Below are positions 25,167 to 32,121 of a stretch of DNA of 64,000 nt, in pieces. The notes beneath the pieces are model-generated. The model was given only the letters and a program-made list of their open reading frames with translations, made no database searches and was not told where the DNA came from. Source of the stretch: Polyangium jinanense (GTDB lineage Bacteria; Myxococcota; Polyangia; Polyangiales; Polyangiaceae); contig NZ_JAGTJJ010000004.1 in the NCBI RefSeq assembly GCF_028435365.1, positions 389,055 through 453,054 of the forward strand, written 5' to 3'. The translations under genes were made by a program, and so were the position numbers. How positions within the stretch are numbered: the first letter of the stretch is position 1; each line of letters begins with the position of its first letter.

Positions 25167-25194
25167 GCCGGCGGATCAGTCTTCTTGCGCCGGC
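25167..25194. terminator. Weak hairpin between convergent genes
   Basis: GCCGGCG at 25167-25173 pairs with CGCCGGC at 25188-25194. It overlaps the end of the MscS gene and has no T-tract, so any termination role would be partial. Confidence 0.3.
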
Positions 25195-26861
25195 GAGAAC
25201 GGCGTGATGGGCGCGGATTCCTCGATTTCGCGCTTGGGCGGGTTCTTGACGTTGAGCGTGCTCTCGATGAGGACGGCTCGACGCGGGCGCGGCGCGCCGA
25301 CCTGCGCTTTGCGGAGCTCGTCCACGATGCGCCCACGCAGCGCGTCGTTCATGTCCTTGTTCTCGCCGGGCGGCACGCGCGCGCTGACACGCAGGACGAT
25401 CGAGCCCTCGTTCAGCTCCTCCACGCCAACCTCCACGCGCGCGGGAGCGCCCGTCCGCGCCTCGACCTCCTGTTCGGCGATGCTCGTGAGGAGCTCACGC
25501 ACCCGCGGCAGATCCTCTTCGTAAGGCACGTGCACGTCGACCACTGCATTCACGAAGGAGCGCGAATGATTCGCGACCTTGCGGACCTCGCCATTGGGGA
25601 TCGAGTGAAGCACGCCGAGATCGTCGCGGATCTTCGTGATACGAACGCCGATCTCCTCCACGCGGCCCTGGATGCCGCCGATCTCCACGAGATCCCCGAC
25701 GAGCAGGAGGTTCTCGAAGAGAATGAAGAAGCCGGCCACGATATCCCCGACGAACGTCTGCGCGCCGAAGCCAATGGCGACGCCGATGACGCCGGCGCCC
25801 GCAAGAAGCGGCGTGGGATCGATGGAGGCCTCGCGGAGGCCCATCACGAGCGCCGAGAAATAGATCGCATACCGCACGAAACCCATGGCCACGGGGACCA
25901 GGGTTTTTCGTTGCTGGAGCGTCTGCGGGTTCGCCTCGGCCACCTTCCCGAGGAAGAGGTCGTTGATGAGTAGAACGCAGATCTCGACGAGGACCCGGCT
26001 CGCATAAAAGATCGCGATGATCCGGAGGCCGACGCGCCCCGCCTGCGAGAGCCACGTGTCGGGCGTGAGCGCGTCCGCGACCCACGTGGCCGCCGTGAGG
26101 TACACGCAATAATCGACGACCCGCTTCGTGATGCCGAGCAGGTGCGACAGGTTGCCGAGGTACCTGAGCGGGCTCTCGAGGTTGGCGAGCCTCGTCGCGT
26201 TGTCGAAGATGACGTCGAGGAGCAGGTATCCGATGCCCGTCGCGAGGCGGCTGACGTAGAAGGCGCCAAGCGTGTAGGTCGCGAGGACGATGGAGCGCTG
26301 GGTCCCAGGCGCGAGCGTGAGCTTGTCGGCGATGAGGACCGCCGCCGCGCCGAGGACGACCACGCGCAGCGCTTTGCGCAGGCGTATCGTGACCTCGGCG
26401 AGCGGCTCGCGCCGTTTGTCCAGCCACTCCGAGCGCGCGACGGCCTGGCCCAGCGCCTCCGCGAGCCCCCGGGCGAGGGCGTCGACGAAGAGCGCGCCGG
26501 CGGCAATGCCGAACGCCGTGAGCAATCGTGTCTTGACGAGCGCGGGATCGTCCCCGGCGAGCGCGACGAGCGCGCTCTTCGCCACGTCGAGGGCCCAGAT
26601 TCCTCGATAGGTGGCGAAGCCCGCGGCGGCCATGAGCACCGCCACGAGGAGCGCGACCCAGACGATCGCGCGACGACGAACACGGCGACGGAATGCCTTG
26701 CGCTCGTCTGCCGTGACGTGCTCCAGCGTCGGCGAGCGCAAGAGGAAGGCATAGCCCCGATGAATTGTCCTGACCAAAAGCTCCGAGAGGAGCAAGAGCA
26801 CCACGATCGTGATGCACAGGGCAACGAGGTTGTGGGCCAGGAGGTCGAGGTGCAGGGTCAT
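25176..26861 (-). CDS. MscS-family mechanosensitive channel, last gene of geosmin/encapsulin operon
   Basis: A 561-residue membrane protein. Several hydrophobic helices fill the N-terminal half (LVALCITIVVLLLLSELLV; AIVWVALLVAVLMAAAGFATY and others). The pore helix region is GAGVIGVAIGFGAQTFVGDIV, followed by the beta domain FENLLLVGDLVEIGGIQGRVEEIGVRITKIRDDLG, the conserved MscS core. The ATG at 26861 lies 14 bases after the second encapsulin stop, same strand, so it is likely part of that operon. MscS channels release solutes on membrane tension. A link to geosmin or shell biology is inferred only from position. The C-terminal tail is cytoplasmic and charged. Confidence 0.93.
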   Translation of the reverse strand: MTLHLDLLAHNLVALCITIVVLLLLSELLVRTIHRGYAFLLRSPTLEHVTADERKAFRRRVRRRAIVWVALLVAVLMAAAGFATYRGIWALDVAKSALVALAGDDPALVKTRLLTAFGIAAGALFVDALARGLAEALGQAVARSEWLDKRREPLAEVTIRLRKALRVVVLGAAAVLIADKLTLAPGTQRSIVLATYTLGAFYVSRLATGIGYLLLDVIFDNATRLANLESPLRYLGNLSHLLGITKRVVDYCVYLTAATWVADALTPDTWLSQAGRVGLRIIAIFYASRVLVEICVLLINDLFLGKVAEANPQTLQQRKTLVPVAMGFVRYAIYFSALVMGLREASIDPTPLLAGAGVIGVAIGFGAQTFVGDIVAGFFILFENLLLVGDLVEIGGIQGRVEEIGVRITKIRDDLGVLHSIPNGEVRKVANHSRSFVNAVVDVHVPYEEDLPRVRELLTSIAEQEVEARTGAPARVEVGVEELNEGSIVLRVSARVPPGENKDMNDALRGRIVDELRKAQVGAPRPRRAVLIESTLNVKNPPKREIEESAPITPFSPAQED

Positions 26862-26875
26862 CGGGGCCGCCGCGA

Positions 26876-29784: not shown

Positions 29785-29805
29785 GAATCCCTCTTTCCTT
29801 GACGG

Positions 29806-32121
29806 CTACGACCGCCCGAGCTTCCACGGCACGGCCCGCGCCGTACCCATCGAAAGATCCGCCTTCGCGGCAGGAACCACGGCACCGGCCTTTCCGGTGC
29901 CAAAGAAACTGCTGATACGCGCGGCCGACGCGCCAAACCCACGCGCGCCCTCGATCGCCCGCTCGAGCGGGTGGCGCTCGAGCTCCGCGTCCACGTAACG
30001 GCTGGTCAGGACGTGCCAGTTGAGCACGCCGGCCATGTACAATCGCTGCTTCTCGACGTATCCGAGCACGGCATCGCGGGCCGCCTTCTCGAGCTTGAAC
30101 TCGTCCAGAATGCGGGGCAGCTCGGTCGCGACGATGTGCTCGAACTCGACGATGCGCGCCGTGAGCATGTCATTGACGACCTCCTTGGCCCGCTGCGCGT
30201 CGCATTCGAGGAACCGCTCGACGACAAGCACGAAGTTACTGAGCTCGCCCTCGAACTCGATCTCCTTGCGATACGAATAGAGATCGTTGGTCCACCCGCC
30301 GACGTCGGCCGTGGTGTTGTCGAGGCTCCGCATCGTTCGGGTGCGGAAGACCTCGGCCGGGACGACGTCGCCGAGCGTGAGCTTGGACAGACCCATCGTG
30401 AGATCGGCGCCGAACGTCTTGCGGCGCATCTCGACGTAATCGACCGGATCCGGGATCCGGTTCTGGGTCTGGTTCAAAAGCTCCCAGAGCCAGCTCTCGC
30501 ACATGGTCTCGATGCTGCGGCGGAGCGTCCGCCTTGCGTTCATCGACATGGGGGACGCCGTGCGAATCCAGAGATCGAGGAGGCTGCTCTCCACGGGGTT
30601 CTCGGGCACCGGGGCGCCGGCGCAGTCGAGGGGCATGAAGAGCGAGAGCCGTGCAACGAACCGCTTCGCGCCCGCCATGTCCCGCGTCGCGCCGAAGACG
30701 AGCGGGAAATAATCATCGCCGTACGTCCCCCAGGTCAGCCAGCCCGAGCTGATATCGAGCTCCTGCGGGGACGCGTCCGGATGGATGCCCGCAGCGCACA
30801 CGGGGAAATCGAAGCCGATGAGCCTGCGCTCGTCCCAGAGCCCGGAGCCGAAGACGCCCGGCACCACGTCGAGCATCCCGAACTTGCGCGCCCACTCGAC
30901 GGTGTTCCGGCGCGAGGCAGGCAGATGCGGGCTCAATCGGAGCTTGAACGGCATGTAGATCTTCGGGAGCGGCATCCGCCCCACGGGCCGGAACGGCGTG
31001 TGGGTGAGCGTCTTGATCCGCTGCAAACCGAGCGCGCCGGGTGTGAGCTTGATCCGGAGCGCCGAGGTGCCGAGCCCCGTCGGCCCACCGAGGAAATCGG
31101 GCACGGACGCGGATTTGTCCGCGTTTTCGTTCATGTAGCGGCTCGACCGCATGTGCCATTCGTGGCCGCCGGATTGCCAGTCCTGGAGCCCCTTCACGTA
31201 CTTGGCGACATCGAGGGCTTGCGCCGGCGAAAGCCCGTACTCCGCGCAGAGCGCCGGCACCTCGACGAGCGCCGTGTTCTCGAATTGATGGAGGCGCGAC
31301 GTCAGGATCTCGTTCGTCAGATCGGCCGCTTTTTGCGTGGGGACACCGAGGAATCGCTCGAGGACGAGCACGCAGTTGGCATTCTCCCCCTCCTCCTCGA
31401 CCTCGCGCTGGTACGAGAACAGGTCATTGCGCAGGTGGACGCCGTCCGAGAACGTGTCGCGCAGGACCTCGAGGGGGCGCGTCGCCGCGACGGCGGCCGG
31501 GACCTCGGCGCCGACCGCGATCTCGACGAGGCCCGCGGACCAGGGCGCGCCGCCGACCTTGCGTCGCATCTCGACGTATTCGACCGGGTTCGCGACGCGG
31601 TTCTCCTGGATATTGGCGAGCTCCCACATGCACTCGAGCAGCAGGTTCTTCGTCGCTTCGAGGAAACGCTCGCGCCAGTTCACCGAGGTGAGCGGGACCG
31701 TGCGCGCCCAGAGGTCCGCGAGCGCGCGCTCGACGACGTTCGTCGGCTCCGGCGGCGTCCCCGTGGGCACCACGGGCATGAAGAGCGGCAGGCGATCGAG
31801 ATACGCCTTCGCGCCGGACATGTCCTTGGTGCGCTTGTAGATTTCGAGGAAATGGTCGTCGAAGAAGAACACCCAGACATACCAATCCGTGATGAGATCG
31901 AGCTCGGCCGGGGGTGCGTCGGGGTGGGTGTACGCGCAGAGCAGCGCGTAGTCGTGCGCGTCGAGATCTTGCTCGGTCCAGATGGGTTTCCCCTGCGGGT
32001 TCTCCTCGAGGATTCCCATCTCATAGGACCAGGCCTTGGTATGCACGCGCGCCCCCTCGAGGTGGGGATTGATGCGCGCCGGATACGGCATGTAGAAGTC
32101 GGGCAGCGTGAAAGGTTGCAT
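29806..32121 (-). CDS. geoA: Bifunctional geosmin synthase (germacradienol/geosmin synthase)
   Basis: A 771-residue class I terpene cyclase with two fused domains. N-terminal domain: aspartate-rich DDHFLE at 88-93 and NSE triad NDLFSYQRE at 232-240, which make germacradienol from farnesyl diphosphate. C-terminal domain: DDYFP at 469-473 and NDLYSYRKE at 612-620, for fragmentation to geosmin. The linker (about 330-380) contains [13 protein letters not shown]; the C-terminal tail (about 725-771) has [12 protein letters not shown] then a Gly/Ala/Pro-rich end. ATG at 32121 begins directly at the cyclase fold, unlike earlier starts. First gene of an operon with two encapsulin shell genes and MscS, implying encapsulation of this enzyme. 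Confidence 0.96.

Follow-up and report, generated by a model that had tools for sequence, protein, structure and literature searches.

Geosmin is a widespread earthy odour of soil and a water-quality problem. The window analysed here is a stretch of 64,000 nucleotides from the myxobacterium Polyangium jinanense (contig NZ_JAGTJJ010000004.1). It contains genes for a geosmin synthase (GeoA), two encapsulin-type proteins (Enc1 and Enc2) and a channel of the MscS family, and this raises the question whether geosmin is produced inside a protein shell of viral descent and whether the channel belongs to it. A geosmin-producing shell is the best reading of GeoA, Enc1 and Enc2, with assembly of the shell and enclosure of GeoA as its inferred parts. 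The proposal as a whole, with GeoA in a mixed Enc1/Enc2 shell and the MscS channel acting in functional connection with it, is in our view probable.

Gene Order and Protein Features

The sequence-only reading had described four same-strand genes separated by 21, 98 and 14 bases. The ends of the open reading frames bear this out for four consecutive minus-strand genes in the order GeoA-Enc1-Enc2-MscS (Table 1). For GeoA, we chose the MQPF-type start on which the sequences of alignment A1 agree, apart from a 6-residue extension in two of them; a longer version starting at 32259 in the ORF list found no support in this alignment. The list also permits an alternative GTG start for Enc2 at 28351. 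A scan of positions 24900-32700 gave no sigma-70-like promoter sites versus 0.7 expected, which is little informative for a myxobacterium with 67% GC, and seven terminator-like matches versus 3.7 expected, none of them inside the gap between Enc2 and MscS. The same four-gene block was found again in relatives with different flanking genes, and the grouping of this operon therefore goes beyond chance. A comparison of 129 window ORFs with 15 loci outside the genus, counting matches above 120 bits, revealed clear relatives only for GeoA, Enc1, Enc2, MscS and the ORFs overlapping them, besides a weak match of one kinase ORF (31-36% identity).

Table 1. Features of the geosmin synthase, shell and channel genes in window coordinates
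Feature	Positions	Strand	Remarks
GeoA, bifunctional germacradienol/geosmin synthase, predicted shell cargo, 771 aa	29806..32121	-	NF041168, PF19086 x2
GeoA N-domain metal-binding motif DDHFLE, residues 88-93	31843..31860	-	invariant in A1
GeoA inter-domain tag, 12 residues (345-356), predicted cargo-loading motif	31054..31089	-	near PMC8346489 consensus
GeoA C-domain metal-binding motif DDYFP, residues 469-473	30703..30717	-	both aspartates invariant in A1
GeoA C-terminal tag copy, 12 residues (725-736)	29914..29949	-	deviates from strict consensus
Enc1, family 2B encapsulin shell protein, 469 aa	28375..29784	-	NF041163; best PDB match 9bje
Enc1 inserted cNMP-binding-type domain, residues 113-201	29182..29448	-	PF00027 E 1.3e-15
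Enc1 diagnostic motif 1, TVWR, residues 334-337	28774..28785	-	S. lydicus Enc1 = TVWK (PMC12407261)
Enc2, family 2B encapsulin shell protein, 466 aa	26876..28276	-	NF041163; best PDB match 9bix
Enc2 inserted cNMP-binding-type domain, residues 114-201	27674..27937	-	PF00027 E 1.5e-17
Enc2 diagnostic motif 1, RRRK, residues 335-338	27263..27274	-	S. lydicus Enc2 = RRRK (PMC12407261)
MscS-family channel, extended N-terminal helical region, 561 aa	25176..26861	-	PF00924 + PF21088

GeoA reached 1214.6 bits with the NCBIfam model NF041168 (f2_encap_cargo3, cut-off 1200), and Pfam domain PF19086 was found in two stretches. Its N-terminal domain matches the solved geosmin synthase domain 5dw7/5dz2 (E 3.1e-153 and 1.3e-152). 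The metal-binding residues of the N-domain (D88, D89, E93, N232, D233, S236, E240) and of the C-domain (D469, D470, N612, D613, S616, E620) are all invariant in A1. Two class I cyclase domains, the match to the cargo model and the tags in linker and C-terminus place the protein in family 2 encapsulin cargo type 3. For such tags, a consensus of 11 residues which is repeated at the C-terminus has been described (PMC8346489). A relaxed tag pattern, drawn up after the GeoA tag sequences had been seen, is present in the linker or at the C-terminus of all 79 GeoA proteins with intact ends from the best 80 of 476 loci (L035, with an open end, was left out) and absent from the 51,033 residues inside catalytic domains. 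The strict pattern G[LF]GTSA was detected in 34 of 44 GeoA proteins with a neighbouring shell gene and in 24 of 35 without; the relaxed pattern is found in every one of these 35. The diverged relative L159, from outside the 80 loci, carries no tag.

The claim of two HK97-fold shell proteins with inserted cNMP-binding domains also stood. With the model NF041163 (encap_f2b, cut-off 400), Enc1 scored 773.8 and Enc2 749.6 bits, and in both a PF00027 domain is inserted and an HK97 domain of the PF19307 (SrpI-like) type lies at the C-terminus, features by which we assign them to family 2B. Each has its own counterpart among the solved structures, Enc1 in 9bje (S. lydicus Enc1) and Enc2 in 9bix (S. 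lydicus Enc2). The shell genes are adjacent, and the products differ in diagnostic motif 1 and are unlike each other in the motif 2 loop, which points to a two-component (Enc1/Enc2) type. The TVWR motif of Enc1 also occurs in locus L001, and a search of the plasmid collection with Enc1 gave 9 records. From homology to 9bje, 9bix and 9bhu, Enc1 and Enc2 are expected to form a closed shell. The S. griseus shell 9BHU is presumably of the 2-methylisoborneol type.

For the fourth gene, Pfam domains PF00924 and PF21088 and 8 hydrophobic stretches were detected. The AlphaFold2 model is moderate (pLDDT 75.4, pTM 0.53, residues 361-440 at block pLDDT 42-67) and was used for the fold class only; with Foldseek it matched MscS-fold channels including YbiO, YnaI and MscK. 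Pore helices and beta-domain, as indicated by PF21088, PF00924 and Foldseek, place the protein among the MscS channels. In the Pfam scan the window copy showed MscS domains only, with neither EF-hands nor the C-terminal cNMP-binding domain of the cyclic-nucleotide-gated type. Its scores of 167.9 bits with NF047601 (MscSThanab, cut-off 500) and 103.4 bits with NF008542 (which we take to be the YbiO-type model, cut-off 596) are both below the cut-offs.

Pairing of Synthase, Shell and Channel in Other Genomes

If the locus encodes a geosmin compartment, as the sequence-only reading supposed, shell genes should accompany geoA in relatives, and this is what we found. In Polyangiales, geoA and a full-length 2B shell occur in the same 15 of 183 genomes (15/15 versus 0/168), and in Actinomycetes a 2B shell was detected in 78 of 81 geoA genomes (76 of 81 without G858 and G986, which have partial shell matches) versus 6 of 264 genomes without geoA; for both groups the scoring covered the best 2-8 first-look candidates of each genome and may have passed over weaker members, and genomes were counted as independent and unweighted by kinship, so Fisher and binomial values are not literal. 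The actinobacterial geoA genomes without a 2B shell match are G785, G977 and G706, the last with a match to the HK97 part only. Contig breaks in the Actinomycetes genomes may hide adjacency of geoA and shell. Where a geoA locus has no neighbouring shell, a shell gene is present in the genome in 36 of 36 cases with all candidates scored; at 29 of these loci (28 actinobacterial and L024) geoA is flanked by at least 6 kb on either side, a neighbour may be hidden at the other seven, and the 80 loci surveyed are the best-scoring of 476 and no random draw. The genome of L024 (G005) holds a second geoA beside its shells. The genome-wide co-occurrence of geosmin synthase and 2B shell, even if unlinked, looks new.

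Of 22 places at which the MscS subfamily of the window was found in two myxobacterial orders, 18 adjoin 2B shell genes, in several gene orders, with adjacency scored within stretches up to about 19-22 kb or until the contig end. At a distance of at most 500 bases from a 2B shell frame, the subfamily was found at all 10 places in Nannocystales (E <= 1e-50, all first-look candidates scored, as for the shell pairs) and at 8 of 12 in Polyangiales (E <= 1e-90, best 2-8 candidates per genome scored, so that weaker members could be missed), the limits being unequal between the orders. The remaining four places in Polyangiales are unlinked to shells. The Polyangiales subfamily (E <= 1e-90) is present in 11 of 15 shell genomes versus 0 of 168 others, again counted without weighting by kinship. 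At locus L194, the channel gene lies beside a shell operon of the 2-methylisoborneol type. GeoA and MscS proteins from contigs of equal length (P0003/P0137, 940626; P0069/P0166, 37020; P0007/P0194, 9684) served merely as a lead to linkage; the first pair agrees with L144, whose contig is of this length. The shells of Sorangium (L006 and presumably L142) and Chondromyces (presumably L143) have no MscS gene beside them, and none was seen at 17 Myxococcales, 14 cyanobacterial and 55 actinobacterial loci, of which only 8 cyanobacterial and 37 actinobacterial ones have 6 kb on both sides; therefore, the channel is not needed for geosmin. The linked copies do not group as a single clade, and that of Enhygromyxa shows only 29% identity. 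Where Nannocystales genomes possess a second shell pair (L168, G505, G507, G508), this pair lacks such an MscS nearby, and the extra geoA copies L152, L153, L163 and L167 have neither shell nor MscS nearby.

The combination of genes had been called different from known ones, and this holds for one part of it. Family 2-associated cyclases comprise two groups, one of them geosmin-synthase-like, and 2B operons often possess two shell genes (PMC8346489), the order geoA-cnb-cnb is preserved in Cyanobacteria and Deltaproteobacteria (PMC7251104), and encapsulins are consistently present in all myxobacterial geosmin clusters of a further study (PMC12766979). Since geosmin synthase with two 2B shells is thus already in print, and NF041168 is a dedicated model for this cargo, GeoA, Enc1 and Enc2 are no new combination. 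The MscS channel is the part that stood: that it persists next to 2B shells in distant relatives seems to be new. Our literature searches, in which papers were judged partly by title, yielded none on MscS with 2B shells; the term 'mechanosensitive' is absent from the main texts of PMC8346489, PMC7251104, PMC12766979 and PMC12407261, and 'mscs' from those of PMC8346489 and PMC7251104.

Following older annotation, the cNMP-type proteins could be read as Crp/Fnr transcription regulators of geosmin synthesis, a view which the PF00027 matches and the Crp/Fnr-type label in PMC7251104 favour. However, both proteins cover all 450 positions of the family 2B shell model, have shells of solved structure as relatives (E 3e-196 to 3e-184) and contain no DNA-binding domain in Pfam. 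In view of the full-length match to the shell family we rejected the regulators, and we regard this reading as extremely improbable. The pairing of geoA and shell might reflect shared ancestry only: both genes would be ancient in these clades, and unlinked copies would not depend on each other in function. Both genes do occur in largely the same actinobacterial genomes, and these were unweighted by kinship; the exact match in Polyangiales and the relaxed tag in all intact GeoA proteins without neighbouring shell argue against this explanation, which we consider unlikely.

For the channel, a bystander role comes into question, that is, a housekeeping osmotic valve which shares the transcription unit or the neighbourhood of a geosmin shell operon. 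None was seen beside the geosmin clusters of other lineages, and with 20-44 loose MscS-type first-look candidates per matched genome a chance neighbour is possible in any one of them. Nevertheless, the adjacency at most of the 22 places persists despite changed gene orders, flipped orientation and different cargo, other neighbours are not common to the loci outside the genus, and the Polyangiales subfamily is confined to shell genomes, so that a bystander seems rather unlikely. Instead of being a tension valve, the channel might also dock the shell at the membrane or let the product out directly. Its place beside shells of two cargo types would fit physical contact, but the C-terminal tails of linked copies vary between lineages, no tag-like motif was found in the window MscS by eye, and geosmin and 2-methylisoborneol should, from general knowledge, cross membranes unaided. 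We judge such a dock or exit to be improbable.

The Proposed Compartment and Known Systems

In the preferred reading of a geosmin shell, Enc1 and Enc2 would co-assemble into a mixed shell, as their homology to the S. lydicus proteins suggests, and GeoA would be loaded by its tags of the G-L/F-G-T-S-A type, one in the linker between the domains and one at the C-terminus. Inside the shell, the N-domain would convert farnesyl diphosphate to germacradienol and the C-domain germacradienol to geosmin, steps which are established for the family and for which the catalytic residues are present. The shell is expected to retain the intermediate, once it is released, close to the second domain and to meter the entry of substrate. 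By analogy to PMC12407261, the nucleotide-type domains should lie above the two-fold pore, probably without binding of cyclic nucleotides. The MscS channel would be tied functionally to the shell and not to geosmin synthase. As its role, we tentatively suggest, and hold only weakly, a relief of membrane tension in cells with membranes into which a lipophilic terpene alcohol, geosmin or 2-methylisoborneol, is taken up. An export of acetone was set aside, as the MscS gene also accompanies the 2-methylisoborneol-type operon at L194; for the chemistry of 2-methylisoborneol, a release of acetone is not known. It is conceivable, though doubtful when taken jointly, that geosmin is always made in 2B shells, with unlinked synthases, in Streptomyces and others, loaded in trans by their tags, and that the MscS of Polyangia is a dedicated membrane partner of terpene shells. 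Such loading in trans would explain why geoA and shell genes are so seldom found apart.

The close pairing of synthase and shell and the tags kept when unlinked make obligate encapsulation directly testable in ordinary Streptomyces. Membrane proteins are already known in family 1 encapsulin operons (PMC8346489); for family 2B shells, the linked channel would be the first membrane component within the literature searched. Its linkage gives a handle on how a volatile product affects or leaves the cell.

The 2-methylisoborneol-type 2B operons (cargo NF041167, methyltransferase NF041943) share the shell family and a terpene cyclase as cargo and can carry an MscS gene too (L194), whereas the operon of the window encodes a geosmin synthase of two domains and lacks a geranyl diphosphate methyltransferase. 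With MscS-family channels, the window protein shares pore and beta-domain and differs by its setting in a shell operon. Its extra N-terminal helices are, by their number, presumably comparable with the larger members YnaI and MscK. A putative membrane protein as accessory gene is likewise found with the DUF1345 proteins in the family 1 DyP operons of Streptomyces (PMC8346489), where shell family, protein family and cargo are different. Enc1 and Enc2 have their counterparts and diagnostic motif 1 in common with the two-component 2B encapsulin of S. lydicus (PMC12407261; 9BJE, 9BIX), which is of the xylulose-kinase type and without assigned native cargo, whereas geosmin synthase is the predicted cargo in the window. 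The geosmin-synthase-like 2B operons (PMC8346489; PMC7251104) contain the same GeoA with linker and C-terminal tags and two 2B shell genes, and the operon of the window differs from them by the MscS gene 14 bases past the second shell gene.

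The operon and its gene families

The sequence-only reading had placed four genes on one strand, and all four lie on the minus strand, separated by 21, 98 and 14 bases. GeoA, the bifunctional geosmin synthase, has two terpene synthase domains with the metal-binding residues intact in both, and reaches 1214.6 bits with the NCBIfam model for family 2 encapsulin cargo terpene cyclases (cut-off 1200). Enc1 and Enc2 match the family 2B shell model NF041163 over its full length, at 773.8 and 749.6 bits (cut-off 400), and each has a cNMP-binding-type domain inserted ahead of the main HK97 part. 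The last gene encodes a channel of the MscS family whose N-terminal part is long and helical. Among the best-scoring 80 of 476 loci around geosmin synthase genes in other genomes, the closest to this operon is found in Polyangium sp. y55x31 (L001). Elsewhere in the window, ARAGORN reported a tRNA-like match at 9491-9574 which lacks a proper anticodon and is probably spurious.

Genes of the geosmin synthase operon (window coordinates)
Gene	Product	Coordinates	Strand
geoA	bifunctional geosmin synthase	29806-32121	minus
Enc1	family 2B shell protein	28375-29784	minus
Enc2	family 2B shell protein	26876-28276	minus
MscS	MscS-family channel	25176-26861	minus

Geosmin synthases, shells and the tag

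The co-occurrence of geoA with shell genes in relatives, on which the sequence-only reading depended, was borne out in two groups. Of 183 Polyangiales genomes, 15 yielded a geosmin synthase (E <= 1e-100), and exactly these 15 yielded a match spanning the full 2B shell model; in another 25, matches cover the HK97 part only, which we read as putative 2A-type shells. In three of the 15 (G473-G475), synthase and shells are megabases apart, which for G474 refers to its full-length synthase copy. Among 345 evenly drawn Actinomycetes genomes (geosmin synthase E <= 1e-200, 2B shell E <= 1e-100), 81 have the synthase, and 78 of these also have a 2B shell, versus 6 of the 264 others (76 of 81 without two genomes having partial shell matches). 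Two synthase-bearing genomes (G785, G977) gave no 2B shell match. In G706 the synthase stands beside a shell gene matching the HK97 part only (G706:C12:466473-469654), possibly lacking the nucleotide-type domain. The shell lies more than 10 kb off or on another contig in 42 of the 79 Actinomycetes geoA genomes with any shell match, and all 36 genomes whose locus among the 80 showed no shell neighbouring geoA have a shell gene. Kinship of the genomes is uncorrected, so the Fisher values overstate certainty.

Two side observations concern the Polyangiales genomes. In G473, G474 and G475 the 2B pair is adjoined by a third shell gene, on the other strand, that matches the HK97 part only. G474 also carries, about 0.18 Mb from its shell pair, a diverged second relative of geosmin synthase (38%; L159, G474:C1:10508619-10509629) with an in-frame stop and no recognisable tags.

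The tag, a predicted cargo-loading signal, was surveyed in one geosmin synthase from each of the 80 loci, of which L035 was dropped for its open end. A conserved motif of 11 residues in the inter-domain region and at the C-terminus of geosmin synthases was previously suggested as a possible targeting sequence (PMC8346489). Our relaxed pattern, composed after inspection of the tag sequences, is present in the linker or at the C-terminus of all 79 synthases with intact ends, 44/44 with and 35/35 without a neighbouring shell (linker 41/44 and 32/35, C-terminus 37/44 and 33/35), whereas the 51,033 residues of catalytic domain contain no occurrence of it. In its strict form, G[LF]GTSA, the tag was found in 34/44 and 24/35, respectively. 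Loading in trans is expected of unlinked synthases if the tag is a loading signal; our literature searches turned up no published account of this, and neither did the consulted passages of PMC8346489 and PMC12766979.

Linkage of the MscS channel to the shell

An HMM of the window MscS, built on 120 relatives, was run on the DNA around geosmin synthase genes. It matched in four of the best-scoring 80 loci, from Polyangium (L001), Paraliomyxa (L017), Enhygromyxa (L020) and Nannocystis (L030), and in none of 14 cyanobacterial loci (8 with 6 kb on both sides) or 55 actinobacterial loci (37 with 6 kb on both sides). There was likewise no match in 17 Myxococcales loci (six among the best-scoring 80 and eleven further stretches), of which L024 has no shell there and L032, L039, L044 and L047 reach the contig end 1.6 kb or less from Enc2. 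The HMM also matched next to the shells in L144-L148 and L150 (Polyangium-like genomes), in L156, and in the Nannocystales stretches L160-L162 and L164-L166. Whole-genome searches with the MscS protein located matches at 12 places across 11 of the 183 Polyangiales genomes (E <= 1e-90) and, in Nannocystales, at 10 places across 10 of 29 genomes (E <= 1e-50). In 18 of these 22 the open frame overlaps, or lies less than 500 bases from, a 2B shell frame; the other four, one copy each in G473, G474 and G475 and the second copy of G379, have no shell within their own 19-kb stretch.

The order geoA-Enc1-Enc2-MscS, for which a search of other genomes had been proposed, recurs in Polyangium, Paraliomyxa, Enhygromyxa and L160. 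L156 has Enc1-geoA-Enc2-MscS, and in the Nannocystis locus L030 and five further Nannocystales stretches MscS is divergent from Enc1-Enc2-geoA; the linkage of channel and shell survives rearrangement of gene order. In L194 (G374, 1-13771), MscS-Enc1-Enc2 is followed by two genes that match NF041943 (geranyl diphosphate C-methyltransferase; 493 bits) and NF041167 (a cargo cyclase; 474.9 bits), each model having a cut-off of 400. We read the cyclase as 2-methylisoborneol type from the adjoining methyltransferase and PMC8346489. A geosmin synthase match is absent from this genome. Since L194 pairs MscS with a 2-methylisoborneol-type shell operon, the channel accompanies the shell and not one product. 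Upstream of this operon stands an APH(3')-like phosphotransferase gene (193.6 bits, short of the family cut-off, 205) and downstream a tyrosine integrase, which hints at mobility.

To control for neighbouring genes, all window ORFs of 150 residues or more between 10 and 47 kb (129 in total) were compared with 19 loci, of which 15 lie outside the genus; matches above 120 bits were reported. In these 15, clear relatives were limited to the four operon genes and the ORFs that overlap them; one kinase ORF scores weakly (31-36% identity, three loci). Within Polyangium, the stretches L144 and L147 show neither the neighbouring amidase nor the aldo-keto reductase but retain MscS. On the other side, linked MscS copies do not form a single clade, unlinked copies are nested among them, the linked Enhygromyxa copy is just 29% identical, and L168, a second Nannocystis shell pair followed by a geranyl diphosphate methyltransferase piece, has no MscS. 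Either the linkage is old with occasional loss, or the channel was recruited more than once.

In L149 (G488), an MscS remnant follows Enc2 at 7278-7500, by eye consisting of the gene start, a short later piece and then unrelated sequence; Enc2 itself is split across two frames. Four MscS relatives of about 740 residues (P0194, P0202, P0219, P0229) carry EF-hands at the C-terminus. The contig of P0194 has the same length, 9684 bases, as that of a geosmin synthase match (P0007), which suggests that the linked channel may also exist in a calcium-sensing form.

Proposed compartment and known systems

In the proposed compartment, farnesyl diphosphate would pass into a mixed Enc1/Enc2 shell, where GeoA, retained via its tags, would cyclise it to germacradienol and then geosmin, the shell holding the intermediate close by. 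The scheme builds on observed gene content, families, motifs and co-occurrence; shell assembly, GeoA loading and flux are inferred by analogy with relatives. Any explanation of the channel must use the fact that geosmin and 2-methylisoborneol are both volatile terpene alcohols from shell-associated cyclases. The role that we favour, if only weakly, is that MscS relieves tension in the membranes of cells in which a lipophilic terpene alcohol builds up; alternatively, MscS may dock the shell or give the product an exit path.

The pairing of GeoA with two shells, part of what the sequence-only reading took for a different combination, is a new member of an already known type. Family 2-associated cyclases were divided into 2-methylisoborneol-synthase-like and geosmin-synthase-like groups, with two shells frequently encoded per 2B operon (PMC8346489), and geoA followed by two cnb genes (471 and 469 residues, labelled Crp/Fnr-type) was described with an order preserved in Cyanobacteria and Deltaproteobacteria (PMC7251104). 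Every myxobacterial geosmin cluster treated in PMC12766979 is reported to include encapsulins. The top solved-structure matches of Enc1 and Enc2 are 9bje and 9bix, the Enc1 and Enc2 of Streptomyces lydicus, whose shells were reported to mix (PMC12407261). According to the same source, the inserted domain of family 2B sits over the two-fold pore and does not bind cyclic nucleotides. The diagnostic motif 1 of the S. lydicus proteins is TVWK in Enc1 and RRRK in Enc2 (PMC12407261); the window proteins have TVWR and RRRK, respectively.
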